DNA from: Thiemannella venezuelensis
GTDB lineage: Bacteria; Actinomycetota; Actinomycetes; Streptosporangiales; Streptosporangiaceae
Length of the DNA: 64,000 nt
Reading direction: 5' to 3'
Assembly (NCBI RefSeq): GCF_014203605.1
Contig: NZ_JACHJJ010000001.1
Span: 636,364-700,363, forward strand
Each line of letters begins with the position of its first letter. The stretch's first letter is position 1. Below the pieces are notes generated by a model. The model was not told the DNA's origin and did not search any database. It saw only the letters and a program-made list of their open reading frames with translations. Below are positions 3,534 to 51,232 of the stretch, piece by piece. Both the position numbers and the translations under genes were made by a program.

Positions 3534-4432
3534 AGCTTCTGGAACATCACGTCGGTGTCCCACCGGGTGAACCCCAGCCGCTCGTAGAGGCGGACCGCCG
3601 CGGTGTTGTCCTCGTCCACGTACAGCATCACCTGCGCCAGGCCGCGCGAGCGCAGGTGCTCCAGGCCCGCCAGGGTCAGCGACCTGCCCAGCCCGCCGCC
3701 CTGCTCGGCCGGGTCCACGCCGACCACGTAGACCTCCCCGATCGGCTCGTGCCCGCCGCCGGCGCCGTGCACCTTCGTCCAGTGGAAGCCCGCGAGGCGC
3801 TCCCCGCGCACCGCGAGGAAGAAGCCCGCCGGGTCGAACCACGGCTCCTGCTCGCGCCGTCTCAGGTCCTCCATCGTCCAGGCCCCCTGCTCGGGGTGGT
3901 GGGCGAACGCGCGGGCGTTCAGCGCCACCCAGGCCTCCCGGTCGGTCTCCGGGTCGAAGGCGCGCAGCCGTACGCCCTCGGGGAGCGTGAAGCCCGGCAG
4001 CGGGGCGGAGAGCGGGCGCCGCATCTGCCACAGCGACCTGACCTTCACCAGCCCCAGGGACCCCGCGAGCGCCTCGGCTCCCGGGTGCCCGCCGTGCGCC
4101 CAGATCCGGAGCCTGCCCCCCGTCCCGTCCAGCACCGACCGCAGCAGGACGCTCCCGTATCCCCTCCTGCGGAAGGCGGGATGGACCACCAGTTCGCCGC
4201 TCGGTCCCCCGGCGGGGTCGGCCGCCTCCACGTGCGCGTAGCCGGCGAGCTCCCCGCCGGCGCGGAGGAGTACGGCTTCCGCGTGCTCGCCGCCCCCGTG
4301 GCGCAGGTGCAGCATCACGTGCTCGTTGAGGGGGCGGACCCCGTCGGCCTCCGTGGCGGCCTCGACCATCGCGAGGACGGCGGCCACCTCTTGTTCGCCG
4401 AGCCGTTCCCGGCGTTCCACATGCACGTTCAT
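3530..4432 (-). CDS. mshD: Mycothiol synthase MshD
   Basis: Mycothiol synthase acetylates Cys-GlcN-Ins with acetyl-CoA, the last step of mycothiol biosynthesis, in the cytosol. The roughly 300-residue protein has the expected two tandem GNAT domains. The N-terminal one has HPAFRRRGYGSVLL as its acetyl-CoA loop. The C-terminal one has GEVYVVGVDPAEQGGGLGRSLTLAGLEHL, then LYVDEDNTAAVRLYERLGF. WVALNARAFAHHPEQG in the middle is typical of MshD. I chose ATG 4432 (MNVHVERRERL); an upstream in-frame start at 4471 would add 13 residues unlike the family. mshA lies at 57824, so two steps of the pathway are in this window. Confidence 0.93.
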   Translation of the reverse strand: MNVHVERRERLGEQEVAAVLAMVEAATEADGVRPLNEHVMLHLRHGGGEHAEAVLLRAGGELAGYAHVEAADPAGGPSGELVVHPAFRRRGYGSVLLRSVLDGTGGRLRIWAHGGHPGAEALAGSLGLVKVRSLWQMRRPLSAPLPGFTLPEGVRLRAFDPETDREAWVALNARAFAHHPEQGAWTMEDLRRREQEPWFDPAGFFLAVRGERLAGFHWTKVHGAGGGHEPIGEVYVVGVDPAEQGGGLGRSLTLAGLEHLRSRGLAQVMLYVDEDNTAAVRLYERLGFTRWDTDVMFQKL

Positions 4433-4513
4433 GGTCTGGACTCTAGGCGGGCCCCGGGCTGCGCGGATCATCGGGTACTGGCAAAAGACGCCAGCTCAGG
4501 ACAGGATGAATCG

Positions 4514-4542
4514 TTACCTTGCGGACATTCGCTGCATAGATA
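4514..4542 (+). promoter_or_regulatory. Candidate sigma-70 promoter for the 5'-nucleotidase gene
   Basis: TTACCT (4514-4519) and TAGATA (4537-4542) are spaced by 17 bp. The -10 ends 9 nt before the ATG at 4552 and no Shine-Dalgarno is present, so the transcript may be leaderless or nearly so. Confidence 0.45.
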
Positions 4543-4551
4543 GCGCCTCTA

Positions 4552-6357
4552 ATGTCGTTTTCTATGATGTCCCGTTCCTTCCAGCGGTTGGCCCTGGCCG
4601 GCGTCCTCGCCTCGGCCGGGCTCGTGATCGCGGTCGGACCGGCCGAGGCGGGCCACAAGCCCGCCAAGACGGTGCCGGTCCGCCTGCTCTCTCTCAACGA
4701 CTTCCACGGCCACCTGGAGCCCCCGACCGGCTCCTCCGGCCGCATGGTCGACGAGACCGGCGCCACGGTCGAGGCCGGCGGCGCGGCCTACGCCGCCACC
4801 CACCTCAAGCAGCTCTCCGACAAGAACACGCTGAAGGTCGCCCAGGGCGACCTGATCGGCGCCACCCCGCTGATCTCGGCGGCCTTCCACGACGAGCCCG
4901 CGGTCGAGTTCCTCGGCAAGGCCGGCGTCACCGTCTCCGCCGTGGGCAACCACGAGTTCGACGAGGGCTACGCCGAGCTCAAGCGCATCATGAACGGCGG
5001 CTGCCACCCGGTGGACGGCTGCTCGCCCGCCGGGCGGTGGAAGGGCGCCCAGTTCGACTACATCGGCGCCAACGTCCTGCTCAAGCGGGCCGACACCGCC
5101 GCCGAGAAGAACGCCCTCGCCTCCCTGGGCAAGAACGGCGACTCGCTGCGCGCGCTGCTGAAGGACTACGGCATCCCGGCGCTGCCCCCGGTCTCCATCC
5201 GCTGGATGAACGGCGTGCCGATCGGCTTCATCGGCCTGGTCACCCAGACCACCCCGAACATTGTCACCGCCGAGGGCATCAAGAACCTGGAGTTCATCGA
5301 CGAGGTCAAGGCCGCCAACGTCGCCTCCAAGCTGCTCAAGCTGGTCGGCGTCAGGGCCCAGGTCGTCCTGGTGCACGAGGGTGACCAGGTCACCCCGAAC
5401 CAGTCGCCCGACGCCTGCAGCGCCCAGCCGGGCGCGGGCAACCGCATCGCCACCCAGGTGGACGCCGAGATCGACATGATCCTCAGCGGGCACTCCCACC
5501 AGGCCTACCTGTGCACCGTGACCGACCCCAAGGGCGCCGAGCGCCTCTACAGCCAGGGCGGCTCGTTCGGCCGGGTGATCACCAAGATCGACTTCCAGGT
5601 GGACACCCGGACCCGTGACGTGGTGCGCTCCTCCGTGGTCGCCGACAACCAGGTCGTGACCCGGACCGTCACCCCGGACCCGGAGATCACCGCGTTCGTG
5701 CAGACCTGGAAGGACCGCGTCGCCACGGTCGCCAACAAGCCGATCGGTAAGATCACCGCGGACATCGTCAACACGGCCGCCCCCTCCGGCGAGTCGCCGC
5801 TGGGCAACCTGATCGCCGACGGCCAGCTCGCCGCGACCAGGACCGGCGGCAATGCCCAGATCGCCCTGATGAACCCGGGCGGCGTGCGGGCCAGTCTCAC
5901 CTACGCGGGCTCGCCCGCGGGCGAGGGCGACGGCGTGGTGACGTACGGCGAGGCCTTCTCGGTCCAGCCGTTCAACAACCTGATGCAGGTGGTCACGCTG
6001 ACCGGTGCGCAGCTCAAGACCGTCCTGGAGGAGCAGTTCACCGGCGGTCCCAACAAGCAGGCCTTCACCAAGATCCTGCAGCCGTCGTCGAACTTCACCT
6101 ACACCTACAGCGCCGGTGCGCCGTGGGGCTCGAAGGTCTCCGACATGAAGATCGACGGCGTCGCCGTGACGGACACCCAGACGATCCGGGTCGCCGCGAA
6201 CAACTTCCTCGTCGGCGGCGGTGACGCCTTCGACACCTTCGAGCTGGGCACCGACGTGTGGAGCGGCCCGCTCGACATCGACGCGTTCGCGGCCTACTTC
6301 GCCGCCAACCCGGTGCTCGCACCGCCGACTCCCGACCACATCACCGTCGTCCCGTAA
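4552..6357 (+). CDS. Secreted bifunctional 5'-nucleotidase / 2',3'-cyclic-nucleotide phosphodiesterase family
   Basis: A 601-residue exported metallophosphoesterase of the UshA/YfkN type. A signal peptide (about residues 1-33, LALAGVLASAGLVIAVGPAEA) is followed by the calcineurin-like domain. Metal-binding motifs are LLSLNDFHGHLEP, GNHEFDEGY and SGHSHQ. The 5'-nucleotidase C-terminal domain follows, with PSGESPLGNLIADGQ, MNPGGVRASL and a substrate-stacking region around QPFNNLMQVVTLTG. Expected role: hydrolysis of extracellular nucleotides to release phosphate and nucleosides. Starts at 4552 and 4564 are both possible; neither has a Shine-Dalgarno, and 4552 fits the -10 spacing. A terminator follows at 6376. 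Confidence 0.92.
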   Translation: MSFSMMSRSFQRLALAGVLASAGLVIAVGPAEAGHKPAKTVPVRLLSLNDFHGHLEPPTGSSGRMVDETGATVEAGGAAYAATHLKQLSDKNTLKVAQGDLIGATPLISAAFHDEPAVEFLGKAGVTVSAVGNHEFDEGYAELKRIMNGGCHPVDGCSPAGRWKGAQFDYIGANVLLKRADTAAEKNALASLGKNGDSLRALLKDYGIPALPPVSIRWMNGVPIGFIGLVTQTTPNIVTAEGIKNLEFIDEVKAANVASKLLKLVGVRAQVVLVHEGDQVTPNQSPDACSAQPGAGNRIATQVDAEIDMILSGHSHQAYLCTVTDPKGAERLYSQGGSFGRVITKIDFQVDTRTRDVVRSSVVADNQVVTRTVTPDPEITAFVQTWKDRVATVANKPIGKITADIVNTAAPSGESPLGNLIADGQLAATRTGGNAQIALMNPGGVRASLTYAGSPAGEGDGVVTYGEAFSVQPFNNLMQVVTLTGAQLKTVLEEQFTGGPNKQAFTKILQPSSNFTYTYSAGAPWGSKVSDMKIDGVAVTDTQTIRVAANNFLVGGGDAFDTFELGTDVWSGPLDIDAFAAYFAANPVLAPPTPDHITVVP

Positions 6358-6375
6358 GCACCCCCGGAACGACCA

Positions 6376-6405
6376 GGGCCCGCCGGATCCCCGGCGGGCC
6401 CTTTT
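6376..6405 (+). terminator. Rho-independent terminator
   Basis: An 11-bp perfect stem (6376-6386 / 6391-6401) with loop ATCC is followed by TTTT, 18 nt after the nucleotidase stop. Confidence 0.85.
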
Positions 6406-6638
6406 CCGTGCGCGCCGCGCCCGCCGTACCTGTCGGCGCCTACGGGCGTGCAACGCCCCATGACATCGCACTGCAAAAAACTTGCGTAGCAAGGCATCTA
6501 AAAAGCAGAAAAACGAAATTAGCTGACAAAGCCTTGTGGAGGGGTGTGCGGGGGTCCTACTGTCACCTCACCCTCGTGGCTCTGCTCCGCCCCGAGCGGC
6601 GTGAAGGCTTCCACCCCCCCGAGAGAAACGAGCATGCG
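6406..6638 (+). promoter_or_regulatory. AT-rich leader/promoter region of the beta-helix glycosidase gene
   Basis: No gene seen. Bases 6470-6535 are strikingly A-rich for this genome and contain the small inverted repeat CTTGC-GTA-GCAAG near 6481. The region probably holds the promoter of the secreted enzyme at 6639; I could not assign a convincing -35/-10 pair. Confidence 0.35.
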
Positions 6639-8729
6639 ATGGCACGGAGCATCACAGGCGCCACGGCGGGACGGCCCGGCGGGCCGCCGCGGACGGGCGC
6701 CGCCGCGGCGGCGGTGACGGCGATCGCCGCCGTCCTCGGCCTCGCGTCCGGCGGCCCGGCCCTCGCGGGCACGGGTACGGCCGGTCCGGCCCGCACCGGC
6801 ACGACCGGAGCCCCCGCTCCCGTCGTGACGCGCGCCGCCCTCGACCCGGCGCTCGTCGCCGGCCGGGGCGCCGACGTCGGCTTCGCCGAGCAGGAGGCGG
6901 AGAACGCCGCGACGGACGGCACGGTCATCGGCCCGGACCGCACCGCGTACACGCTCCCGGCGGAGGCGTCCGGCCGCAGGGCGGTCCGGCTGACGCCGGG
7001 GCAGCACGTCGAGTTCACGCTGCCGGAGGCGGCCAACGCGATCACCGTGCGCTACAGCATCCCGGACGCGCCCGGCGGCGGCGGCATCACCGCGCCGCTC
7101 GACGTCACGGTGAACGGCAGGGCGCGGAAGACCATGACCCTCACCTCGCAGTACGCGTGGCTGTACAACCAGTACCCGTTCACCAACGACCCCGGCGCCG
7201 ACCTGCTGCACCCCGACTGGTGGATCACCGAGTGCTCCTGCGTGCCCGGTGCCACGACGCCGGCACCCGAGATCGCCAAGCCGTTCCGCCCGATGCACTT
7301 CTACGACGAGCAGCGCCTCCTGCTCGGTCGCACCCACCGCGCGGGCGACAGGGTGCGGCTCACCGTCCCCGCCGGGAGCAACGCCGAGTGGACGGTCATC
7401 GACCTGCTCGACTCCGAGCTCGTCGGCCGGCCGCACATCGACCTCCGCGCGGCGAACGTGCTGGCGTTCGGAGCCGACCCGTCCGGCAGGCGCGACTCCG
7501 CCGGCGCGTTCGAGCGGGCCATCGCCTTCGCCAAGCGCAAGCACCTCAAGGTCTACATCCCGCCGGGCACCTTCCAGGTGAACCGCCACATCATCGTCGA
7601 CGACGTGACGATCGAGGGCGCCGGCAACTGGTACACGATCATCAAGGGCCGCGAGGTCGCCCTGGAGACCCCGGCCCCCGACGGCTCGGTGCACACCGGT
7701 GTCGGCTTCTACGGCAGGGACGCGAAGGACGGCGGGAGCAGGAACGTCCACCTGTCCGGCTTCGCGATCGAGGGCGACGTCCGCGAGCGCATCGACACCG
7801 ACCAGGTGAACGGCGTCGGCGGGGCGATGAGCGACTCGACCATCACGGGCCTGCACATCCGCCACACCAAGGTGGGCATGTGGTTCGACGGGCCGATGAC
7901 GAACGTGAGGATCACGGACAACGTCGTCGTCGACCAGATCGCCGACGCCCTCAACTTCCACACCGGCGTCACGAACTCGGTCGTGTCGAACAACTTCATC
8001 CGCAACACCGGCGACGACGGCCTCGCCATGTGGTCGGAGAAGACCGCGAACGCCGGCAACACGTTCGACCGCAACACCGTGCAGTCGCCCACGCTCGCCA
8101 ACGGCATCGCCGTCTACGGCGGCCGGGACAACACGGTCTCGAACAACCTGGTCGCCGATCCGGTCCGCGAGGGCAGCGCCATCCACGTCGGCGCCCGCTT
8201 CGGCGCCGAGCCGTTCACCGGGCGGCTGCGGATCGGGGACAACACCACGGTCCGCGCCGGCACGTTCGAGCTGAACTGGAAGATCGGCCTGGGGGCCGTC
8301 TGGTTCTACGCGCTCGACAAGGACATCGACGCGGACATCGAGGTGACCGGGGACCACTACCTCGACAGCACCTACAACGCGATCATGCTGGTGAGCGAGT
8401 GGTCGGTGAAGGACCTGTACGCCATCCCGGACGTCCGCTTCAAGGACATCAGGGTCGACGGCACCGGCACCTCGGTGGTCAGCGCCCGGGTGAAGGGGTC
8501 GGCGTCCTTCGAGAACGTGGACGCCCGCAACGTCGGCGCGGTCGGCGTCAACAACTGCGGGTCGTTCGGCTTCCCGCCCACCGGCTCGGAGTTCTCGCTG
8601 ACGGACCTCGGCGGCAACGACGGAGGCGGCGCAGGCGGGCCCTGGCTCGCCCCGTGGATGTTGCCGAACACCATCACCTGCGACGACCGGCCGCCGGTCG
8701 TCGTTCCGCCGCCGCCCTCCCCGTGGTGA
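6639..8729 (+). CDS. Secreted right-handed beta-helix glycosidase, GH87-like (alpha-1,3-glucanase / mycodextranase type)
   Basis: The open frame extends further upstream, but ATG 6639 (MARSITGATAG) starts a signal peptide with an Ala-rich core ending near GGPALAG; length from there is 696 residues. A beta-sandwich N-terminal region (EAENAATDGTVIG ... VRYSIPDAPGGGG) precedes a pectate-lyase-like beta-helix. The helix begins at NVLAFGADPSGRRDSAGAFERAI and has many Asn/Gly-rich turns (ITDNVVVDQIADALNFHTG, NNFIRNTGDDGLAMWSE). The paired Asp in NTGDDGLAMWS matches the acidic cluster expected in the GH87 active site. The protein ends with a Pro-rich tail. The alternative is a generic GH28/PL-like beta-helix protein; substrate is inferred. 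It may attack fungal alpha-glucan, fitting the polysaccharide-degrading lifestyle. Confidence 0.75.
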   Translation: MARSITGATAGRPGGPPRTGAAAAAVTAIAAVLGLASGGPALAGTGTAGPARTGTTGAPAPVVTRAALDPALVAGRGADVGFAEQEAENAATDGTVIGPDRTAYTLPAEASGRRAVRLTPGQHVEFTLPEAANAITVRYSIPDAPGGGGITAPLDVTVNGRARKTMTLTSQYAWLYNQYPFTNDPGADLLHPDWWITECSCVPGATTPAPEIAKPFRPMHFYDEQRLLLGRTHRAGDRVRLTVPAGSNAEWTVIDLLDSELVGRPHIDLRAANVLAFGADPSGRRDSAGAFERAIAFAKRKHLKVYIPPGTFQVNRHIIVDDVTIEGAGNWYTIIKGREVALETPAPDGSVHTGVGFYGRDAKDGGSRNVHLSGFAIEGDVRERIDTDQVNGVGGAMSDSTITGLHIRHTKVGMWFDGPMTNVRITDNVVVDQIADALNFHTGVTNSVVSNNFIRNTGDDGLAMWSEKTANAGNTFDRNTVQSPTLANGIAVYGGRDNTVSNNLVADPVREGSAIHVGARFGAEPFTGRLRIGDNTTVRAGTFELNWKIGLGAVWFYALDKDIDADIEVTGDHYLDSTYNAIMLVSEWSVKDLYAIPDVRFKDIRVDGTGTSVVSARVKGSASFENVDARNVGAVGVNNCGSFGFPPTGSEFSLTDLGGNDGGGAGGPWLAPWMLPNTITCDDRPPVVVPPPPSPW

Positions 8730-35798: not shown

Positions 35799-37424
35799 TC
35801 AGGAGATGACGGGCGCGGGCGGGGCGCCGGTGCCGGTCCAGGAGCCGATGAAGCCGAAGGTGGTCGAGCCGCCGGCCGGGAGGTTGCCGTTCCAGGGGGC
35901 GTTGGTGAAGGTGGAGGCGGTGCCGGAGGTGCTCAGAGCGGAGCTCCAGTTCTGGGTGACCTTCACGCCGGCCGGGTAGGTGAGGGTGGTCTTCCAGGAG
36001 GTGACGGCGGCGGTGCACGTGACGGTGACCTCGCCCTGGAAGCCGCCCTGCCAGGAGTTGACCAGCCTGTAGGCCGCCGAGCAGCCGTCCGCCGGACCGG
36101 ATCCCGTGGTGAAGGCGGTGGTCGCGGAGGGGTCGGAGACGTTGCCGGCGGCGTCGCGGGCCACGACGTGCACGGTGTAGGCGGTCTCCGGGGTCAGGCC
36201 GGTCAGGGTGAGGGAGGTGGCGGCCGAGGAGCCGAGCCTGGTGGTGCCGCGGTAGACGTCGTAGCCGGTGACCCGGACGTTGTCGGTGGAGGCGGCCCAG
36301 GTCAGTGTCGCCCCCGAGGCGGTGACGTTCGAGGCGGCGGGTGTGCCCGGCCTGGACGGCGCGGTGGTGTCGTCGGGCGTCTCGTCGCCCGCCAGGGCGT
36401 CGTGCACCGCCGTGTAGGCCGGCTTCTTCCCGTAGTTCTCGTCGTAGATCAGCGCCGCGCCCTGGCCGGGGAAGGTGTCCGGCACCCAGGAGTACTTGTC
36501 GGTGAAGCCCCAGACGGTGACGCCGGAGCAGCGGCTCACCGCCACGCAGGCCTTGACCACGTCGGAGTAGTAGGTGGCCTGGGTGGCGTCCTTGGCCGCG
36601 TCCCGGGGGGTTTGCATCCGGACGTCGATCTCGGTGACCCGCACCTCGACGCCCAGGTCGGCGAAGCGCTGCATGTTCTCCCGGATGTTCGGGAAGCCGT
36701 ACTGGATCGCCAGGTGGCTCTGCAGGCCGACGCAGTCGACCGGCACGTTCTGCGCCCGCAGCGACTTGACCAGGTTGTACATGGCCGTGCTCTTGGCGTT
36801 GACGCCCTCGACGTTGTAGTCGTTGATGCAGAGCGTGGCGTCGGGGTCGGCCGCGCGGGCGTACCGGAAGGCGTCGGCGATGTAGCTCTCGCCCAGCTTC
36901 TGGTACCAGAACGAGGTACGCAGGTTGCCGTTGTCGTCGAAGACCTCGTTCACCACGTCCCAGGACGTCAGGACGGGGTTGCCCGCGTAGCGGCCGGCGA
37001 CCCTGCTGATGTGGTTCTGCATCGCCTCGCGCATCTCGGTGGCGCCGAGGTTCTGCACCCAGCTCGGCGTCTGGCTGTGCCAGACGAGCGTGTGGCCGTG
37101 CACCTGCTGGTCGTTCTGCTCGGCGAAGGCCATGATCTGGTCCGCGCCGGTGAAGTTGAACTGGTTCCGGCTGGGCTCGGTGGCGTCCCACTTCATCGCG
37201 TTCTCGGCGGTGACCTGGTTGAACTCCGAGGCCGCGATGCTCCGGTAGGCGGTCTCGTTCGCCAGGGGGGAGGTGGCGAGCGCGGCGCCGACGAACTTGC
37301 CGCGCGCCTCGGCGTGCGCGCGCAGCGGGGCCGAGGCGTGGGCCGGTACGGCGGGCAGCACGGCCGCGGCGACGGGGAGGGCGGCGAGCACTCCGCTCAG
37401 GAGCGCCCTGCGCAGTCGGGACAT
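35799..37424 (-). CDS. Secreted GH10 endo-1,4-beta-xylanase with FN3 and CBM2-like module
   Basis: 541 residues. Signal peptide (LLSGVLAALPVAAAVLPAVPAHA), then a GH10 catalytic domain (about 40-345). KWDATEPSRNQFNF and HGHTLVWHSQTPSW mark the substrate cleft, WDVVNEVFDDNG holds the acid/base Glu, and VRVTEIDVRM the nucleophile Glu. A fibronectin-III domain and a CBM2-like module follow. In that module the second Cys sits in VTVTCTAAV rather than at the C-terminus. The FN3-CBM2 half is nearly identical to that of the neighbouring mannanase, indicating duplication. A CCGAAACTTTCGG palindrome lies upstream (37464-37476). Confidence 0.95.
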   Translation of the reverse strand: MSRLRRALLSGVLAALPVAAAVLPAVPAHASAPLRAHAEARGKFVGAALATSPLANETAYRSIAASEFNQVTAENAMKWDATEPSRNQFNFTGADQIMAFAEQNDQQVHGHTLVWHSQTPSWVQNLGATEMREAMQNHISRVAGRYAGNPVLTSWDVVNEVFDDNGNLRTSFWYQKLGESYIADAFRYARAADPDATLCINDYNVEGVNAKSTAMYNLVKSLRAQNVPVDCVGLQSHLAIQYGFPNIRENMQRFADLGVEVRVTEIDVRMQTPRDAAKDATQATYYSDVVKACVAVSRCSGVTVWGFTDKYSWVPDTFPGQGAALIYDENYGKKPAYTAVHDALAGDETPDDTTAPSRPGTPAASNVTASGATLTWAASTDNVRVTGYDVYRGTTRLGSSAATSLTLTGLTPETAYTVHVVARDAAGNVSDPSATTAFTTGSGPADGCSAAYRLVNSWQGGFQGEVTVTCTAAVTSWKTTLTYPAGVKVTQNWSSALSTSGTASTFTNAPWNGNLPAGGSTTFGFIGSWTGTGAPPAPVIS

Positions 37425-37529: not shown

Positions 37530-39095
37530 TCAGGAGATGACGGGCGCGGGCGGGGTGCCCGTGCCGGTCCAGGAGGCGATGAAGCCGAAGGTGGTCGAGC
37601 CGCCGGCCGGGATGGAGCCGTTCCAGGCGGCGTTGGAGAAGGTGAAGGCGGTACCGGAGGCCGACAGGGTCGAGCTCCAGTTCTGGGTGACCTTCACTCC
37701 GGCCGGGTAGGTCAGTGTGGTCTTCCACGAGTTCACGGCGGCGGCGCACGTGACCGTGACCTCGCCCTGGAAGCCGCCCGGCCAGGAGTTGACCGGCTTG
37801 TAGGTGGCCGCGCAGTCGCTCGGCGGGGTCGAGGTGGTCGTGAACGACGTGGTCTCGGAGGCCTCGGAGACGTTCCCGGCGGCGTCGCGGGCGACGACGT
37901 GCACGGTGTAGGCGGTCTCCGGCGTCAGACCGGTCAGGGCGAGGGAGTTCGTGGCCGAGGAACCGAGCTTGGTGGTGCCCCGGTAGACGTCGTAGCCGGT
38001 GACCCGGACGTTGTCGGTGGAGGCGGCCCAGGTCAGTGCGGCACCGGTCGAGGTGACGCCCGAGGCGGCGGGCTTGCCGGGCCGGGTGGGCGCCTCGGTG
38101 TCGGGGCCGCCGCCCCCGCCGTAGATCTTCGCCTCGACGGCGGTCTGCGCGATGCCGTTCGCACCGTTGAACAGGCGCTGGCCCCAGGGGGTCAGCTTGT
38201 TCACGTCGAAGCCGGTGACCTGGTCGAGATACTCGACGCCGCCGCCGTTGCCGCTCCAGGACCAGCCGAAGTAGCCCAGGCCGCGCGCCTGGGCCTGGGC
38301 CATGATCGTGTCCTCGTCGGGGTTGCCGTCGGAGTGGTCGTGGCCGAACTCGCCGACCACCAGCGGCAGCCCGGCCGTCCGGAAGGCGTCCATGTAGGCG
38401 ATGACCTCGGCGGAGGTGTCGAACACGCCGTACATGTGGATCGAGAAGATCGTGTTCTTGTCGGGGTCCGCGGCGGCGACGGTCTTGGCGTTGTCGCGCA
38501 TGGTGAAGGACCAGTCCTGGCCCCAGTTGGGGGCGTCGACCATGAGCGCGTGGTCGAACCCGGCCGTGCGCATGCGCTTGATCGCGTTCGAGGTGGCCTC
38601 GGTCCAGCCCGGGGTGACGGCGTTGTTGCCGATCGGCTCGTTGCCGATGTTGATGATGACGTAGTCCTCCTGGCCGTCCAGCGCGCTCTTCACGCTGGTC
38701 CAGTAGTCCACGGCCGCGTCCAGGGTGTAGGCGCCGCCCTGCTCGCCGTACCCGGTGGTGTCGTGGTTCTCCAGGACGCAGATGAGCTTGTTCTGCTTGC
38801 AGAGCGAGACGACGTTGGCCACGTCGGCGGTGGTGTTGGGCGTCCACCGGCCGCCGCTCAGCACCACGCGCACGGCGTTGGCGCCCAGCGACTTGATGCC
38901 GGCGAAGGAGGCCGTCTGGCTCGTGTACCAGGTGTGCGCGTGGGAGGTGCCGCGCAGGACGAGGTTGCTCCCGTCCGCCTCGACGATCTTCGTACCGCTC
39001 ACGTGGATGCCGGTGTCGGCCTGCGCGGGCGGGGCCGCGACCAGGAACGAGGTGAGTGCCGCGGCGAGCGCCGCGATGGTGAGCCGTGCTCTCAT
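37530..39095 (-). CDS. Secreted GH5 subfamily 8 beta-mannanase with FN3 and CBM2-like module
   Basis: 521 residues. Signal peptide ends near PAQADTGIHVSG. The catalytic domain (about 27-325) has the GH5_8 pattern known from Streptomyces and Thermobifida mannanases. Markers are TSHAHTWYTSQTASFAGIKSLGANAVRVVLSGG, LENHDTTGYGEQGGAYTLDAAVDYW, INIGNEPIGN (acid/base Glu), VVGEFGHDHSDGNPDEDTIM (nucleophile Glu) and GYFGWSWSGNGGGVEYLD. FN3 and an atypical CBM2-like module follow (second Cys in VTVTCAAAV, no C-terminal Cys). Cleaves beta-1,4-mannans outside the cell. Confidence 0.95.
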   Translation of the reverse strand: MRARLTIAALAAALTSFLVAAPPAQADTGIHVSGTKIVEADGSNLVLRGTSHAHTWYTSQTASFAGIKSLGANAVRVVLSGGRWTPNTTADVANVVSLCKQNKLICVLENHDTTGYGEQGGAYTLDAAVDYWTSVKSALDGQEDYVIINIGNEPIGNNAVTPGWTEATSNAIKRMRTAGFDHALMVDAPNWGQDWSFTMRDNAKTVAAADPDKNTIFSIHMYGVFDTSAEVIAYMDAFRTAGLPLVVGEFGHDHSDGNPDEDTIMAQAQARGLGYFGWSWSGNGGGVEYLDQVTGFDVNKLTPWGQRLFNGANGIAQTAVEAKIYGGGGGPDTEAPTRPGKPAASGVTSTGAALTWAASTDNVRVTGYDVYRGTTKLGSSATNSLALTGLTPETAYTVHVVARDAAGNVSEASETTSFTTTSTPPSDCAATYKPVNSWPGGFQGEVTVTCAAAVNSWKTTLTYPAGVKVTQNWSSTLSASGTAFTFSNAAWNGSIPAGGSTTFGFIASWTGTGTPPAPVIS

Positions 39096-39250: not shown

Positions 39251-41887
<2,637 letters not shown>

Positions 41888-41941: not shown

Positions 41942-44884
41942 TCAGGGGAAGAGCCGGCCGTACTCGGCCAGGGCCACGGCCACGTCGACCTGGGCCCAGA
42001 ACCGGTGGAAGGTGAAGGTCGGCGCGGGGCCGGTGCCCTTCAGGTAGGCGTCCACCTTCGGCCAGTCCGGGTCGTTCTTGTAGAAGGACCGGATGGACAG
42101 GAAGGTGGAGTTGCTGTCGATCACGTCGCCGTTGGGCATCTTGCCGGTCCAGCCGGCCGGGACGTAGACCGGGTCGTCGAGGCGGTTGTAGTCGGCCTTG
42201 GTCTCGGTGGTCGAGACGCCCTTGGCGTCCTGGTTGTTCTTCCACATGCCGTCGAGCAGGCCCTTGGCGACGTCCCGCGCCTTGGTGTCGCCGGACTTGG
42301 CCGCGTAGTACATCAGGACCTTGGCGTAGGAGCCCGCCACGCCGACATCGGTCGTGTAGTCGCGGATGCTGACGTGCAGGCCCGCGTTGGAGCCGGGGCT
42401 GGACGGGTTCCAGGTGTCGGGCTGGCCGGTCCACACCAGCGTCGAGGGGATCTGGTAGGTCCCGTCGGCGTTGATCGTGGTGTTGTCGGTGGCCCACTTG
42501 ACCCACTTGTCCAGCACGACCTTGGCGTCGGCGTTGCCGGTGGCGTAGTACAGCTCCGCCACGCGCTCCATCGACCAGGCCTGGAAGCCGAACCACTGGT
42601 TCGACGGCGGGTCGTGGTAGACCGGCTGCCAGTCGTAGGCCATGCCGTAGAAGGTCGGCAGGTTCGACGGCGGCGCGGCGTAGTGGCCCTGCCAGCTGTT
42701 GGTCGCGCCGCCCGCGATCGCGCCCTCGCTCGACTGCAGCCAGCGGTAGAACTCCAGCTGCCGGTCCAGGCTCTTGTCCCAGTCCTGTACGGCGGTCGCG
42801 CCCTTGGGCTTGAGCGCGTCCACGCTGGACAGCACCCAGGCGGCCATCGGGTTCTGGTAGCCGGAGTGGTTGTGGCTGGAGCCGATCCGCCAGGCCCAGC
42901 CCGCGGAGGTGTCGATCGCGCCGCCCCAGGCGTAGTACCAGCTCAGCAGGTAGGCCGAGCTGTCCTTGCCGGTGCCCGCGGGGCACGAGGTGCTGGTGCA
43001 GCCCTGCTTCTTGAAGTACTTGTCGTACATCGCGTAGCGCAGGTAGTCGCCCATCTTCGCGGCCTTGGCGACCGAGGAGGCGACCTGCGACTCCTTGCCC
43101 TGCTCCTTGGCCCAGGTGTGCGCCCAGTAGGCGACCTGGACGGCGCGGGCGTCGGCGTCGGGGGCGTTGGTGTACTTCCACTGCTTGGCGTAGGAGGAGT
43201 CACCGGTGAACAGGTCCAGGTACCCGTTCTTGCCGCCGTGCTTGAAGGTGTCGCAGGACGGCTGCGGGACGGTCTCGAAGACCGACTCCTCCGGGCCGCG
43301 CTGGTAGGTGTTGATGTAGGCGGGCCTGGTCGTGCCGTCGCCGCAGCGGCCGAAGCCGTAGGTGTTGTCGACGTCGAGCAGCCAGTGCATGCCGTACACG
43401 TCGCTGGTGCCGTAGGCGGTCTTCAGCTCGTTCGCGATCGGGTCCACGCCGACGCTCACGCCGCCGTCCAGCTTGGACGGGTACTGCTTGATGTCGTCCC
43501 ACTCACCGGCGTAGGTCGCGGGCTTGGAGGGGTTGTAGAACGAGTTCGTCGGCTGGTCGGCGGTGGCCGGGATGATGTACTTCTCCATCGACGCCCAGGC
43601 CGCGTTGAACTTGCTCCAGTCGCCGGTCACCTTGCCGTAGGCGGCCTCCAGCCACAGGTAGTAGCTGTAGGCCTCGGAGGTGGTCTCGTGCCCGTGGTCG
43701 GGCGCCTCGACGAGGAAGGTCTCGACCGAGTGGTACGGCACGCCCTCGGGCGAGAAGTAGCCGTTGGCCGGGTCCTTGAGCTTGTTGTACATCGTGGTGA
43801 AGCGCTTGATGTACTCGTTGTCGCCGCCGGGGGTGTCGTTGTCCACCTCGGTGGCGGAGGCCTTCCCGGCGGTGTGGCCGGTGGCGGTGGCGGTGAACTC
43901 GGCGCTGCCGGAGGTCGTGTCGGCGTCCTCGGCGGCCTTGATCTGCACCGTCTGGGCGGTGTCCCAGTTCGCCGGGGTGAACGTCAGCGAGGCCCCGGTG
44001 CCGACCGTGAGGTCGGCGTCCCCGCTGGTCCTGGCGGTCGCCACGGTGACGTTCGCCGCCGGGGCCTTGGATAGCTTGACCGACAGGGTCGCGGCGTCCC
44101 CCTCGGGCACGGCGAGCGTGGCGGGGGTGACGACCACGGCGGGCGCGGCGTCGGCCTTCACGCTGATCCCGACCGGGTCGGAGGTCTTCGTCAGGCCCTT
44201 GTCGTCGGTGGCCTTGGCGGTGATGGAGTAGTCGCCGGCCGGCACGCCGGTCCAGTCGTGGGAGTACGGCGCGCTGGTGTCGGCGCCCAGCAGCGTGGTG
44301 CCGTTGTAGAACTCGACCTTGGCCACCGTGCCGTCGGAGTCGGAGGCGTCGGCGGCGATCTCCACCGTGGCGGGCGCGGTGAAGCTCGCCCCGGCGACCG
44401 GCTTGGTGAGTTTCACGGCGGGGGCCTGGTTGCCCGGCCCGCCCCCGCAGGTGACGCCGTTGATCGTGAAGGAGGTCGGCTTGGGGTTGCTCCCGGACCA
44501 GCTGCCGTTGAAGCCGATGCTCGTCGAGGCGCCGGTGGCGAGCTTGCCGTTCCAGTCCATGCTCTTGGCGGTGACCGCGGTGCCGCTCTGCGACCAGGTC
44601 GCACTCCAGCCCTGGACGAGCTTCTGCGTGGCGGTCGGGAAGTCGAAGCCCAGGGTCCAGCCGTCCAGCGGGTCGCCCAGGTTCTTGATCGTGACACTGG
44701 CGGTGAAACCGCCCTGCCAGTCGTTGGTCGAGTAGGCGACGTCACACGAGACGGCCGCGTGAGCGGGCGAGGCCGTCAGCGCGGTCGTCATCCCGGCCGT
44801 CAGGCTGAGCAGAGCCAGCGCCGCGACGCGTCTCCGCCTCCTGGGGTGTGGGAGCGCTCCCGCTCTCGTGGGGTTCAGATGCAT
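41942..44884 (-). CDS. Secreted GH48 reducing-end cellobiohydrolase with N-terminal CBM2 and Ig-like modules
   Basis: About 980 residues from ATG 44884 ([13 protein letters not shown]), with GGAGG 10 nt upstream; a start at 44935 is less likely. Modules: signal peptide, CBM2 ([22 protein letters not shown] ... INGVTCGG), bacterial Ig-like ([46 protein letters not shown]), and a Calx-beta-like domain. The GH48 domain then runs to the end ([60 protein letters not shown]). The Glu in GHETTSEA is the catalytic acid. GH48 enzymes are the key exocellulases of bacterial systems. A perfect CelR/CebR operator lies upstream (44966-44979) and a near-perfect one inside codons 8-12. Confidence 0.96.
44849..44862. 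promoter_or_regulatory. CelR/CebR box, intragenic in the GH48 5' end
   Basis: TGGGAGCGCTCCCG, 13 of 14 matches to the CebR/CelR operator, begins 22 nt inside the GH48 coding sequence. Confidence 0.7.
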
Positions 44885-44965
44885 GGGAAAAGGTCCTCCA
44901 GGGGTGATTCGCCGCAATTTCGCTGGTAGAGGCATCGCGTCGGATCAGGCAGGGGTGAGAATCTG

Positions 44966-44979
44966 TGGGAGCGCTCCCA
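44966..44979. promoter_or_regulatory. CelR/CebR operator upstream of GH48
   Basis: TGGGAGCGCTCCCA, the exact 14-bp palindrome known as the operator of the LacI-family cellulose regulators CelR (Thermobifida) and CebR (Streptomyces), 82 nt before the GH48 start. Confidence 0.93.
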
Positions 44980-45096
44980 AAGAGGATTCTGGAGAGCGCC
45001 GGAGGGATGTCAATGGCGTGTGTTCCGGGTTGCGCCGGGGTTTCCCTCCGGTGCCGGTCAGGCCCCTGAGATCGGGCGGAACGGCTTTCCGGAACG

Positions 45097-45364: not shown

Positions 45365-47548
45365 TCAGGGCAGGGGCGGGCTGGCCAGCCGGGCGCGCTC
45401 CAGGGCGAGTTCCGGCCAGAACGTCCCCGGGGGCGGGGTCTCCGCACGGTAGACGGGGTCCTCGGGACCGTCGGTGCCGCGCGTGCAGGGCCCGTTGGCG
45501 TGGCCGGGCACGGAGATCCACAGGTAGGCGTCGACCAGTTCGCCGCTCGTCGCCGTCGTCGGCCGGAAGCCGACGCCTCGGCCGGGAGGGTTGCACCAGG
45601 TCTGCGGCTTCGGATAGGCCGTCTCGGGAACCCACTCGCCCCGGCCGTTGCGGCTGGTGTCGATCACGAAGTGCGGCAGCGCGGCCGGGTCGTCCGGCGC
45701 CGCCGCGATCTCCGCGTCGAGGCAGTCGTCCGTTCCCGCCGTCACCTGGACGTACACGCATCTGGCGAGCCGGGCGCCGTAGGCGGCGAGTCCTTCCGTC
45801 CGCTGGTACCCGCTCGCGTTGAGGAAGAAGCCGTCGGCCTCGGTGATCTTCGCCTTGACGAGCCGCCGGCCCATTTCGCTCAGCGCGGGCCACTTCTCGA
45901 AGCTGCCGTCGAGGTAGACGGCGGTGCGGGGCAGCTCGCCGAGCCGTTCGACCGCGTAGGAGAGGTCGCCGAAGCGGCGCTCGGTGGCCGCGTCGTCACC
46001 CAGCCCGCACTCCTCCGTACCGGGGATCTTCACGAGGCTCTCCGGTTCCAGGATCACCACGGCCCGCGCGTCGCCGATCTCCTCGGCGACCTGGTCGATC
46101 CAGGACCGGTAGGCGGAGGCGTCCGCCGCGCCGCCGGCCGGACGGCAGTTCCTGAGCGGCACGTTGTAGCCGACGAAGACCGGGACGGAGCCGGCCTTCC
46201 CGGCCGCGCGCAGGGTCGCGGCGACGGTACGGCGGGCCTTGTCCGCAGGGCCCTTCAACCAGACGGCCTGGGGGACCGCGGCCAGCGCCTCCATCAGCTC
46301 CGCGTCCCGCGCCCGGCCGGCCGCGGCCCAGAGCCTCGCCTGCCCGGCGGCCTCGTTCTCCGGCGCGAACAGGCGGACGCCCTCTTCGTCGAGGGGGTTG
46401 GGGCCGGTGGCGCCGAGCGGAGGGGCGGAGGAGGACGGGGCGGCGGGCCCGCTCGCCGGCCCCCGCTCCACCGCGCCCGACGCGGCGGGGGAGGACACCG
46501 CGGAGGACGGCCCAGCGGGAGACGACGCGGACGGGACGGCTTCCCCCGCGGAGCCCGCCTGCGGCACGACGAAGGCCGCGGCCACCGCGGCCGCGACGGC
46601 CGCCAGGGCTCCCGCACCCGTCCACGGGCGGCGGCCGAACGCCGTCAGGGCGCCCCTGAGGGCCGGTCCGCGGCCCTCCTCCCCGCCCGGAGCCCCTCGC
46701 GTGCCGCGGGCCCGGCCCGCGGTTGCGCCGGGGTCCACGGGCAGCACCCCCGAACCCGTGCTGAGCGCGTCCAGCAGGTCCTGCGGGGTCGGGCGGGCGG
46801 CGGGATCCTTGGCGAGGGCGGCCGTGACGAGCGGGAGGAGGCGATCGGGCAGCCCGGACAGGTCGGGCTCGCCGTGCGCCACCCGGTACAGGAGGGCGGG
46901 GACGGCTCCGGTGCCGAAGGGCCCGTGCCCGGTGGCGGCGTAGACGAGCACCCCGCCCCAGGCGAAGACGTCCGATGCCGGGGTGGCCGGGTCTCCCTTC
47001 ACCTGCTCCGGCGACATGAACGCGGGGGTGCCGACCAGCACGCTGCTGGTCTTGCCGGAGCCCTCGGCCAGCCGGGCGATGCCGAAGTCGATGACCCTGG
47101 GCCCGACCGGGGAGAGCAGCACGTTCGAGGGTTTGAGGTCACGGTGGACGACCTGGGCCCCGTGGATGGCCCGCAGGGCGACCGCGATGCTGGCGGCCAG
47201 GCCGTCGAGGCTGGAGCCGGTGAGCGGGCCGCCGGTCCGGACGGCCTGCTCCAGGCTGGGGCCGGGCACGAACTCCGTCGCCAGGTAGGCCAGGGCGCCG
47301 TCCACGTCGGCGGCGAGCACCGGGGCGGTGCAGAACCGGGCGACCCGCTGGGCGGCGGTCACCTCCTGCCGGAACCGGCCGCGGAAGCCGGGATCGTCGG
47401 CGAGGTGCGCGTGGATCACCTTGACCGCCACCTGGGCGCCCGCCTCGTCACGGGCGAGGTAGACCAGGCCCATCCCGCCCTGGCCGAGGCGGCCGAGCAG
47501 GGTGTAGGGGCCGATCCGGCGCGGATCGCCGTCCCTCAGCTCGTCCAT
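45365..47548 (-). CDS. Transmembrane Ser/Thr protein kinase fused to an extracellular GH6-like pseudoenzyme domain
   Basis: 727 residues. The kinase domain (about 13-263) is complete: GQGGMG, K43, HRDLKPSN (135-142), DFG (154-156), MSPEQ. A juxtamembrane linker, one helix (about 311-329) and a Ser/Ala/Pro linker follow. Residues 390-727 are a glycoside hydrolase family 6 fold (VPVFVGYNVPLRNC; YRSWIDQVAEEIGDARAVVILEPESL; YLDGSFEKW; HFVIDTSRNGRGEW; WCNPPGRGVG; VDAYLWISVPGHANG). GH6 catalytic positions are replaced. The Asp of RDC is N467 and the acid Asp of EPDSL is E503. The Lys, Glu and Asp of the K-P-G-E-x-D motif are S679, H683 and N685. So an active kinase probably reads cello-oligosaccharides through a dead cellulase. 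It follows the GH48 control region. Confidence 0.9.
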   Translation of the reverse strand: MDELRDGDPRRIGPYTLLGRLGQGGMGLVYLARDEAGAQVAVKVIHAHLADDPGFRGRFRQEVTAAQRVARFCTAPVLAADVDGALAYLATEFVPGPSLEQAVRTGGPLTGSSLDGLAASIAVALRAIHGAQVVHRDLKPSNVLLSPVGPRVIDFGIARLAEGSGKTSSVLVGTPAFMSPEQVKGDPATPASDVFAWGGVLVYAATGHGPFGTGAVPALLYRVAHGEPDLSGLPDRLLPLVTAALAKDPAARPTPQDLLDALSTGSGVLPVDPGATAGRARGTRGAPGGEEGRGPALRGALTAFGRRPWTGAGALAAVAAAVAAAFVVPQAGSAGEAVPSASSPAGPSSAVSSPAASGAVERGPASGPAAPSSSAPPLGATGPNPLDEEGVRLFAPENEAAGQARLWAAAGRARDAELMEALAAVPQAVWLKGPADKARRTVAATLRAAGKAGSVPVFVGYNVPLRNCRPAGGAADASAYRSWIDQVAEEIGDARAVVILEPESLVKIPGTEECGLGDDAATERRFGDLSYAVERLGELPRTAVYLDGSFEKWPALSEMGRRLVKAKITEADGFFLNASGYQRTEGLAAYGARLARCVYVQVTAGTDDCLDAEIAAAPDDPAALPHFVIDTSRNGRGEWVPETAYPKPQTWCNPPGRGVGFRPTTATSGELVDAYLWISVPGHANGPCTRGTDGPEDPVYRAETPPPGTFWPELALERARLASPPLP

Positions 47549-47834: not shown

Positions 47835-48245
47835 ATGGCCAGGCTCATAGGCAGGCAAAACGTGACGAAGCTGTCCATCCAGGTCACTCAGTATCGCGCT
47901 TGCGCTGTCATCTCGGTCGCGGGAGATCTGGACAAGGTTTCGGCTCCGCAACTGGAGCAGACGCTGACGGACCTGCTCGCGGACGGGCACGTCCACCTCA
48001 TCGCCGACGTGTCCGGGCTGGATTTCTGCGACTCCACCGGGGTCTGGCTGCTCCTGTCCGGCCTGCGCCGGACCTTCGAGGCGGGCGGGTGGCTCCGCCT
48101 GGCGGGGGTCAGGGGGTTCCTCCAGCGCCTGCTGGAGCTCACCCGGCTCAGCGACGCGTTTCCCACGGACCTGACCGTCGCCGACTCCCTGCGCCACGCC
48201 CCCACCCGGCGCTCCGGCCCGGCGTCGCCTCCCACGGCCGTGTAG
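47835..48245 (+). CDS. STAS-domain anti-sigma factor antagonist
   Basis: 136 residues from ATG 47835; GTG 47862 is an alternative start. The STAS core is VISVAGDLDKVSAPQLEQTLTDLLADGHVHLIADVSGLDFCDSTGVWLLLSGLR, with the phosphorylatable Ser in CDSTG. Such proteins release sigma factors by binding RsbW-type kinases and are inactivated by Ser phosphorylation. No RsbW or SigB-type gene is adjacent. It lies between two Ser/Thr kinase genes, so regulation by them is conceivable but only inferred. Confidence 0.88.
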   Translation: MARLIGRQNVTKLSIQVTQYRACAVISVAGDLDKVSAPQLEQTLTDLLADGHVHLIADVSGLDFCDSTGVWLLLSGLRRTFEAGGWLRLAGVRGFLQRLLELTRLSDAFPTDLTVADSLRHAPTRRSGPASPPTAV

Positions 48246-48364: not shown

Positions 48365-49913
<1,549 letters not shown>

Positions 49914-49927
<14 letters not shown>

Positions 49928-50918
49928 GGACCACCAGCTCCGTCGGTAGGACGGGGTTGTTCCTGGACGGCTCGCCCGTGCTCATCGTGCGCAGCAGCAG
50001 CCGGGTGGCCAGCGCGGCGTACTCCTCCACGGGCTGGCGCACGGTGGTCAGCGTGGGAGAGGTGCGCCGGGCGATGGGGGCGTCGTCGAAGCCGATCACG
50101 GCCACGTCGTCGGGGACCCGGCGGCCGGCCCGGCGCAGGGTCTGCACGGCGGCCGCGGCCATCACGTCGGAGGCGGCGAAGATCGCGTCCAGGCGCGGCA
50201 TCCTGCGCAGCAGCCACTGCGCGGCGTGCACCCCCGAGGAGTGGGTGAAGTCGCCGTAGGCCACCGGGATCCCGGCCATCCCGGCCATGGAGAGCGTCCG
50301 GGTGAAGCCGTCGAGCCGGTCGCGGGCGGCGGGCAGTCCCGGCGGTCCGGCGATGGCGGCGATGGCCCGCCGCCCGCCCAGGAGCAGGTGCTCGGCGGCC
50401 TGCCTGCCCCCGTCGTGGTTGTCCATGTCCACGTAGGGCAGGTCGATGCCGTCGGGCAGGCGGCCAGCGCTCCGCACCGGGATGCCGGAGGCGGCCAGTG
50501 TCACCACGAGCGGGTGCCGCTCCCGCGCGCCGATCAGCAGGACGCCGTCGACGCCTCCGGCGACGAGCTGGGGGGTGGCGATGGTGGAACCGGCCGAGGG
50601 GACCGTCATCACCGTGAGCGGGATGCCGTGGCCGGCGAGCACCTCCTCCGCCGCGGTGATCATCCTGGCGTAGAAGGGCTCGGTGAACAGGCGCTGTGCG
50701 GGCTCGCAGACCACCACGGTCACCGTCTGATCGCAGCGCCGCCCTGCGCCGCCCCGGGGAGCGCGGTGCCGTACGTAACCGAGCCTGGAGATGGCGTCGT
50801 GCACCTGTCGCCGGGTCGAGGTGGCGACCCTGACAGAACCGGTAAGGACCCTGGATGCCGTCGCGGGGGACACTCCGGCTTCGGCGGCGACCTGGGCGAG
50901 GGTGGGCACGTCGGTCAT
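49914..50918 (-). CDS. celR: LacI-family regulator of cellulose utilisation (CelR/CebR type)
   Basis: 334 residues from ATG 50918, preceded by GGAGGAAG. The N-terminal LacI HTH (PTLAQVAAEAGVSPATASRVLTGSVRVATSTRRQVHDAISRLGYVRH) is followed by a periplasmic-binding-protein-like ligand domain (DQTVTVVVCEPAQRLFTEPFYARMITAAEEVL ... VIGFDDAPIARRTSPTLTTVRQPVEEY). A perfect TGGGAGCGCTCCCA lies 31 nt upstream, and the same site controls GH48, so this is very likely the cognate CelR/CebR repressor released by cellobiose or cellotriose, autoregulated. No cebEFG transporter is in the window. Confidence 0.85.
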
Positions 50919-50948
50919 AACTTCCTCCACACCTAAATGTCGTGCAGG

Positions 50949-50962
50949 TGGGAGCGCTCCCA
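50949..50962. promoter_or_regulatory. CelR/CebR operator upstream of the lacI-type gene
   Basis: Perfect TGGGAGCGCTCCCA, 31 nt before the regulator's start: autoregulation, extending to the overlapping kinase gene. Confidence 0.93.
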
Positions 50963-51232
50963 GAAAACGTAGCATTGTTTCGGAGGAGTCAACAGATGTT
51001 TCCGAAAAATCACCTGATGTCTGTCAAACTCGCTTGACCCCCCAGTCAGGGCGGACGCCGTCGCCATCCCGCATGTCTACCGGTCGGGACCGAGTGAGGG
51101 CAACGTGACCCAATGTGTCGGGAAGGACGAACTATCCGGAAGGTGCCATGGAGGGGGCTCTCCCGCCGGCCGGGAGACGAGCCTGGCCGGACGGCCGCGG
51201 GGCGCGGTCGTCGTGTCCTTGCTCCGCGGGTC

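Follow-up and report, generated by a model that had tools for sequence, protein, structure and literature searches.

The minus strand of a 64,000-nucleotide stretch of the Thiemannella venezuelensis genome (contig NZ_JACHJJ010000001.1, positions 636,364 to 700,363; hereafter the window) carries an open reading frame (ORF) of 727 amino acids, read from an ATG, that joins a Ser/Thr protein kinase to a domain of glycoside hydrolase (GH) family 6. A reading made from the letters of the window alone (the sequence-only reading) had described the product as a receptor kinase whose extracellular sensor is a catalytically dead GH6 cellulase domain. The ORF, a complete kinase with intact residues and a single predicted membrane helix were all recovered at this place (Table 1). 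The kinase displayed the G-loop, Lys43, the HRD Asp137, Asn142 and the DFG Asp154 of Hanks-type Ser/Thr kinases, and the best hydrophobic window begins at residue 310. The Pfam model Glyco_hydro_6 (PF01341) matched residues 410-691 above its cut-off (E 2.8e-51), placing the protein in GH6 at the level of fold. Because the kinase precedes the only helix and no N-terminal signal is apparent, the GH6 domain is predicted to lie outside the cell, with the C-terminus out.

Relatives in other species are 74-76% identical across the GH6 part and pairwise dN/dS is below 1; this is not a chance open frame. Among 10 pairs from the five-genome lineage that includes the window, dN/dS (rough values, owing to strong codon bias) was 0.29-0.71 for the ectodomain, 0.24-0.56 for the kinase and 0.50-0.94 for the linker.

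Active-site residues of the receptor

Residues were mapped by alignment to Thermobifida fusca Cel6A (chain 1tml), with positions counted along 1tml; T. fusca Cel6A numbering is used below. Five of the six GH6 catalytic-site residues are changed in the receptor, exactly as the sequence-only reading had listed them: Asp79, Asp117, Lys259, Glu263 and Asp265 are replaced by Asn467, Glu503, Ser679, His683 and Asn685. The sole one kept is Asp547, the equivalent of Asp156. We take Lys259, Glu263 and Asp265 to play roles in the GH6 catalytic set, and Lys259, Glu263 and Asn190, as well as Tyr73, to be probable sugar contacts. The equivalent of Asp117 is described as the catalytic acid, both as D221 of Trichoderma reesei (PMC6091422) and as Asp117 itself (PMC5968413). 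The equivalent of Asp79 is described as a putative base, and the D175A variant of T. reesei Cel6A as still 2-3% active (PMC6091422). Judged by Asp117 and the set of Asp79, Lys259, Glu263 and Asp265, the receptor lacks the residues of a working GH6 enzyme. Two further GH6 domains of the same genome have all ten scored residues intact, and a third displays RDC and WIKPPGESDG, its acid motif not being found by the pattern used.

Residual hydrolysis has to be weighed here. The receptor could be a slow membrane-anchored cellulase, with Glu503 or a water molecule in the place of Asp117, and both the retention of Asp156 and the activity left in D175A would suit such an enzyme. Yet Glu503 is unique to the window sequence among the 122 kinase-fused domains described below, the nearest relatives having Gln or Asn, and the receptor also lacks Lys259, Glu263 and Asp265, which makes this explanation very improbable.

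A family of kinase fusions in Streptosporangiaceae

The fusion belongs to a family and is no singleton. A search with residues 395-727 returned 706 matches, the best 120 of which were listed; precomputed Pfam domains include a kinase in 91 of these. The kinase-bearing proteins were named as Planobispora, Nonomuraea, Microbispora, Microtetraspora, Streptosporangium, Thermopolyspora, Planotetraspora and '[Actinomadura] parvosata'. A second search, with a chimeric query favouring a kinase joined to an active GH6 domain, gave 7706 matches; its best 120 contained 11 fusions beyond the first list and added Rhizohabitans, Sphaerimonospora, Sphaerisporangium and a Thermobispora metagenome-assembled genome. 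By taxonomy look-up, Rhizohabitans, Thermobispora, Thermopolyspora, Thermocatellispora and Planomonospora belong to Streptosporangiaceae, where we presume the remaining fusion-bearing genera belong too.

Among 200 genomes sampled from the GTDB family of the window, 39 had a match at E <= 1e-40. Of their 47 matches, 42 lie in frames of at least 650 amino acids (34 genomes, 12 genus groups) and the other five in frames of 409-469. Thirty family loci of about 4 kb each were fetched, and kinase and GH6 domain share one frame in 29 of them; fusion members were thus fetched and checked in 12 genus groups of this one family. Among 394 genomes of the class, six matches at E <= 1e-60 lay outside it, all in short frames (399-526 amino acids). 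The kinase-pseudoGH6 fusion is real and, to the extent of these searches, general in a single bacterial family. Many of these proteins are annotated at source simply as 'glycoside hydrolase family 6 protein', a label that is misleading for a kinase fusion.

Listed proteins and fetched loci together yielded 218 distinct GH6 domains, 122 fused to a kinase and 96 unfused. Of the fused domains, 92 come from the protein list and the other 30 were found only in loci; the set includes near-copies (111 groups at 98% identity, 83 at 90%) and two rows cut by a locus end (L091, L094). The 11 fusions of the second search were not added, since four are domain-identical to counted loci and two others are 98.8% alike. 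A hydrophobic segment of at least 1.6 on the Kyte-Doolittle scale was present in 119 of the 120 scored fused relatives, two being unscored. The kinase motif residues were present in all 121 fused rows with a letter there, and the first G-loop glycine in 119/119.

A decaying or mis-assembled fusion devoid of function would explain why seven relatives lack a kinase in the same frame, one of them from Microbispora (L016) with kinase and pseudo-GH6 in separate frames, as also in L104. One of the seven (P0005) is only a truncated annotation, since one of the fetched genomes has a kinase upstream of it in the same frame. Together with the number of distinct fused domains, the retention of kinase motifs throughout and dN/dS below 1, this led us to reject decay or annotation artefact as next to impossible; linkage to a GH48 gene in five genomes speaks against it too.

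Some loci depart from the usual arrangement. Two kinase-GH6 copies lie close together in Microtetraspora niveoalba (L008) and Microbispora siamensis (L011). The separate frames of L016 and L104 could reflect a split gene or a sequencing error. P0021, a metagenome protein whose listing joins MMPL to a pseudo-GH6 domain, stands beside kinase-fused rows in the tree and may be an assembly join. The window genome itself gave 63 kinase matches, 30 of which were fetched; the 20 with the longest tails (three cut by a locus end) contained no other GH ectodomain, and displayed PASTA domains in three cases and WD40 in one.

Residue loss across the family

No fused domain retains the full catalytic set (0/122, and 0/11 among the fusions of the second search), the finding that the sequence-only reading had named as fatal to its proposal if it went the other way. 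Since each search listed only its best 120 matches (of 706 and 7706), rare active fusions may still occur among the others. The maximum kept in any fused domain is three of six. Lys259 is kept in 0/120, Glu263 in 5/120, Asp117 in 3/120, Asp265 in 20/120, Asp79 in 64/122 and Asp156 in 118/120. The five exact substitutions of the window protein are thus not conserved across the family; what is conserved is the loss itself. Lys259 and Asp117 are also changed in 11/11 second-search fusions. The three sequences with Asp117 (P0013, P0082 and L025, 8927-10981) lack Lys259 and Glu263, and may represent reversion or late loss. Meanwhile, 82 of the 96 unfused domains keep all six residues and seven keep all except Glu263. 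The remaining seven (P0005, P0021, P0046, P0059, P0064, P0088 and L016) have lost most of them and fall on the fused side of the tree.

We then considered the 75 positions at which at least 90% of 89 unfused enzymes share one residue. At least 60% of fused domains keep 58 of these, and fewer keep the other 17: W41, Y73, R78, D79, D117, S189, N190, S220, K259, P261, E263, D265 and the positions of window-protein residues 472, 490, 704, 707 and 718. Among the 17, D79 and S220 still survive in slightly more than half of the fused domains. Once this result had been seen, 13 positions were listed as catalytic or sugar-contact sites; 10/13 of these are lost, versus 7/62 of the others (Fisher p 5e-6). 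The pattern looks like active-site loss within a conserved fold.

For a tree of 93 domains, 58 were taken from the 122 fused ones and 28 from the 89 enzymes, and the seven odd ones were added. The branch separating enzymes from fused domains had an SH-aLRT support of 100 and held with 13 catalytic-region columns masked, so that one origin of the pseudo-GH6 domain is the simplest reading. Tyr73 and Asp117 each require two changes on the sampled tree. For Tyr73, loss followed by regain in the lineage of the window is possible, and parsimony would prefer it.

Genomic neighbourhood

Genes for GH48, GH9, GH5 and GH10 proteins follow the receptor gene on the same strand, their assignment by the sequence-only reading being borne out by Pfam. 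On the other side lie a LacI-family regulator, a second Ser/Thr kinase (kinase 2), whose C-terminal part gave a weak TetR_C_43 match below the cut-off, and a STAS-domain protein encoded antisense between the two kinases.

Table 1 Features of the receptor gene, its GH6 residues and its surroundings (positions in the window)
Feature	Position	Strand	Remark
Kinase-pseudoGH6 receptor gene	45365..47548	-	ATG start, 727 aa ORF
Ser/Thr protein kinase domain, residues 15-260	46769..47506	-	Pfam Pkinase, PF00069, E 1e-35
Predicted membrane helix, residues 310-328	46565..46621	-	Best hydrophobic window, Kyte-Doolittle 2.1
Predicted extracellular GH6-fold domain, residues 385-727	45368..46396	-	
W430	46259..46261	-	Cleft Trp41 equivalent, kept
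Y461	46166..46168	-	Tyr73 equivalent, kept in this lineage alone
N467	46148..46150	-	Asp79 replaced
E503	46040..46042	-	Catalytic acid Asp117 replaced
D547	45908..45910	-	Asp156 equivalent, kept
W553	45890..45892	-	Trp162 equivalent, kept
W651	45596..45598	-	Trp231 equivalent, kept
S679	45512..45514	-	Lys259 replaced
H683	45500..45502	-	Glu263 replaced
N685	45494..45496	-	Asp265 replaced
GH10 protein with CBM2	35799..37424	-	
GH5 cellulase with CBM2	37530..39095	-	
GH9 cellulase with CBM3 and CBM2	39251..41776	-	
GH48 cellulase with CBM2	41942..44935	-	
CebR-like box, one mismatch	44849..44862	.	Start of GH48 ORF
Perfect CebR/CelR box	44966..44979	.	Just downstream of -10-like hexamer of GH48 promoter
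Sigma-70-like promoter before GH48	44986..45013	-	TTGACA-16-CAGAAT, consensus match only
STAS-domain protein	47835..48245	+	PF01740, CDSTG motif
Second Ser/Thr kinase	48365..49927	-	PF00069, E 2.2e-39; overlaps LacI gene end by 14 bases
LacI-family regulator	49914..50975	-	PF00356, PF13377
Perfect CebR/CelR box	50949..50962	.	LacI start region

Planomonospora sp. ID67723, Planobispora longispora and Planobispora takensis (L005-L007) share the gene order of the window: LacI, kinase 2, STAS on the opposite strand, kinase-GH6, GH48, GH9, GH5, with GH10 next in two of these three loci. The part read of a fourth genome (L086) reached GH48, bringing this linkage to five genomes. All Tyr73-keeping sequences from fetched loci of this lineage also keep Trp41, Trp162 and Trp231. 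The CDSTG motif of the STAS protein was present in 4/4 related loci read.

The locus also carries boxes that fit the CebR/CelR consensus, given as TGGGAGCGCTCCCA (PMC5332605). Allowing up to two mismatches, three sites were found in the window where 0.71 were expected, and 1 of 100 shuffles reached three. Exact sites number 11 genome-wide versus 0 for a reversed control. The exact box before GH48 recurs in L005, L006, L007 and L086, and the one at LacI in the first three of these.

Proposed function

With slightly more confidence than doubt, we propose that the window gene encodes a receptor-type Ser/Thr kinase with a predicted single membrane pass, whose predicted GH6-fold C-terminal domain, having lost five of six catalytic-site residues, likely acts as an extracellular sensor and, in this lineage, would bind beta-1,4-glucan chains or cello-oligosaccharides. 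The case made by the sequence-only reading stands to this extent: the loss of catalytic residues is confirmed, and a sensor role remains the best interpretation of it.

In such a receptor, the GH6-fold domain would hold a beta-1,4-glucan chain in the former active-site cleft and not cut it. Several receptors gathered on one chain, or a change of shape upon binding, could bring the kinase domains together, which, like PknB-type kinases, would then phosphorylate one another and their targets. The signal might feed into neighbouring genes, the candidate targets being the STAS protein, the LacI regulator and the second kinase. Anti-anti-sigma factors are usually phosphorylated at a CDSTG motif, and its retention in all related loci read makes the STAS protein a good first candidate. 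Such a receptor would supply an outside signal, that polymer is present, beside the inside signal of CebR-type repressors, imported cello-oligosaccharide.

Several observations weigh against this proposal. Tyr73 is kept in just 5/122 fused domains (P0001-P0004 and L006), all from the lineage of the window, and Trp41 in 49/122, with Arg in its place in 64/122; the claim of the sequence-only reading that the carbohydrate cleft was preserved thus applies to this lineage and fails for the family. Lys259, Glu263 and Asn190, which we presume to be contacts, are lost in this lineage too, so that sugar affinity could be weak. The higher Z obtained with bacterial endoglucanases may be due to kinship among bacteria and not to an open cleft, since the fungal endoglucanase 1dys gave a Z of 32.5, similar to cellobiohydrolases. 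Upstream of the receptor gene, no CebR box was found even with two mismatches allowed, which leaves the gene outside the CebR/CelR regulon as defined by such boxes. Relatives of the GH48, GH9, GH5 and GH10 genes of the window were not found at 19 loci of other genera (L008-L025 and L027, with L016 split), some of which are cut by contig ends and in which other glycosidases could be missed, since only the window's own four enzymes were compared. This absence was judged on the 19 loci because the 30 family loci span only about 4 kb each. The cellulase neighbourhood invoked by the sequence-only reading is thus specific to Planomonospora and Planobispora as far as read, and, being confined to one lineage, represents a single event. 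Given this absence, and with Tyr73 and often Trp41 gone from most of the family, the family as a whole need not be devoted to sensing cellulose.

The same losses bear on whether the GH6 fold binds sugar at all, or has become a protein-protein or dimerisation module. Most fused domains lack Tyr73, Asn190, Lys259 and Glu263, presumed contacts all, and the frequent replacement of Trp41 by Arg points the same way. However, other residues are near-universally kept: Trp231, Arg221, Asn187, Arg237 and Trp257 in 120/120 fused domains, Asn222 in 119/120, an aromatic residue (Trp or Tyr) at the Trp162 position in 118/120, and Asp156 as given above; Trp231 is also kept in 10/11 second-search fusions. Some of these may be structural. 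We regard such a module without sugar binding as rather improbable.

Unlikely, if less so, is that the ligand sensed is a glycan from the cell's own envelope, such as the cellulose-like polymer of a CslA-type synthase, in place of plant cellulose, with the linkage to cellulases being secondary. Consistent with this, the Nonomuraea, Microtetraspora and Microbispora loci have the gene in other surroundings: across the 19 loci, leuA-like genes recur near it in six, era-like genes in four, GNAT-type genes in seven, and MFS and response-regulator genes in four (one member of each group was named by Pfam). The window genome also encodes a GT2 synthase (L116, 323-2056) near a motif-intact GH6 gene (4059-5033), an arrangement that resembles the cslA-cslZ pair described for Streptomyces (PMC9040799), which makes an envelope glycan a fair rival for the rest of the family. 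This GH6 gene displays the RDC, EPD and KxPGESDG motifs and a lipoprotein-like start; a neighbouring gene (6067-8097) had no galactose-oxidase Pfam match. Against an envelope glycan in the window's own lineage, the gene sits there between LacI and cellulase genes that both carry CebR boxes, and this lineage alone keeps Tyr73 together with Trp41. In the 19 other-genus loci, a single CebR box was found at up to one mismatch, an exact one 8.8 kb from the match in Nonomuraea (L019).

Returning to a glucan-binding sensor, we tentatively extend the proposal to the family. Streptosporangiaceae may have gained a receptor-kinase family through one capture and disarming of a cellulase. In Planomonospora and Planobispora it would serve as an outside cellulose sensor, forming a two-input switch with a CebR-type repressor for the adjacent cellulase genes, while in other genera the fold would have been re-tuned to other glycans, possibly their own.

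To our knowledge, the signal of most bacterial receptor Ser/Thr kinases is not known. Here, a sensor fold with well-understood ligand chemistry makes the stimulus directly testable. If correct, the proposal would provide a kinase-based route for sensing plant polymers in aerobic actinomycetes, in which induction is attributed to cello-oligosaccharides brought into the cell and to CebR/CelR. The family also offers a natural series for the change from enzyme to receptor, with kinase motifs kept and the GH6 catalytic set lost.

Comparison with known systems

In the open-licence literature searched, we found no described kinase-GH6 protein, in agreement with the sequence-only reading; glycosidase-derived sensors in membrane signalling proteins are already known (RsgI6 with GH10, and CHRK1). 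The receptor shares its fold, cysteines and several cleft tryptophans with GH6 endoglucanases such as T. fusca Cel6A and Mycobacterium tuberculosis Cel6, but it is changed at the catalytic acid, at the candidate base and in the Lys/Glu/Asp loop, and is tethered to a kinase.

Among kinases, the PknB/Stk1 PASTA proteins belong to the same kinase family and have a single helix and an extracellular C-terminal sensor, made of PASTA repeats. In contrast, the receptor had no PASTA match at E 0.1 and scored 170.7 bits against NF033483 (cut-off 450). The best-scoring NCBIfam model was that of the AfsK-type kinases of Streptomyces (NF053615, residues 1-418), at 262.8 bits versus a cut-off of 1300; the sensor of AfsK is a beta-propeller, unlike the GH6 domain here. 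A 2012 survey lists Ser/Thr kinases beside LacI genes among CelR-site genes of Streptosporangium roseum (Sros_0943) and Thermobispora bispora (Tbis_0860), and its passages on them mention no GH6 domain (PMC3377646). They probably correspond to kinase 2 of the window, likewise beside a LacI gene, and not to the GH6 kinase.

The tobacco chitinase-related receptor-like kinase CHRK1 is the architecturally nearest known system, although its glycosidase domain is GH18, where that of the receptor is GH6, and its host is a plant. In the original work, a catalytic residue of CHRK1 was reportedly lost. A review presents it as a kinase with a glycosidase-fold ectodomain, expects it to be an active enzyme and counts 91 plant sequences, CHRK1 included, with this architecture (PMC5485988).

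Functionally, the nearest known system is RsgI6 of Clostridium thermocellum. Like the receptor, it is a membrane signalling protein with an intracellular output and a C-terminal GH domain, associated with genes for plant-polysaccharide enzymes, and its GH10 domain is described as keeping polysaccharide binding with very low catalysis (PMC4711584). It differs in being a GH10 protein of Firmicutes whose output is an anti-sigma factor, described as released by proteolysis (PMC12203970) and not acting by phosphorylation. The N-terminus of the receptor is a kinase, with no RsgI anti-sigma Pfam match at E 0.1; the receptor may thus work in the manner of RsgI-type sensors without being one of them.

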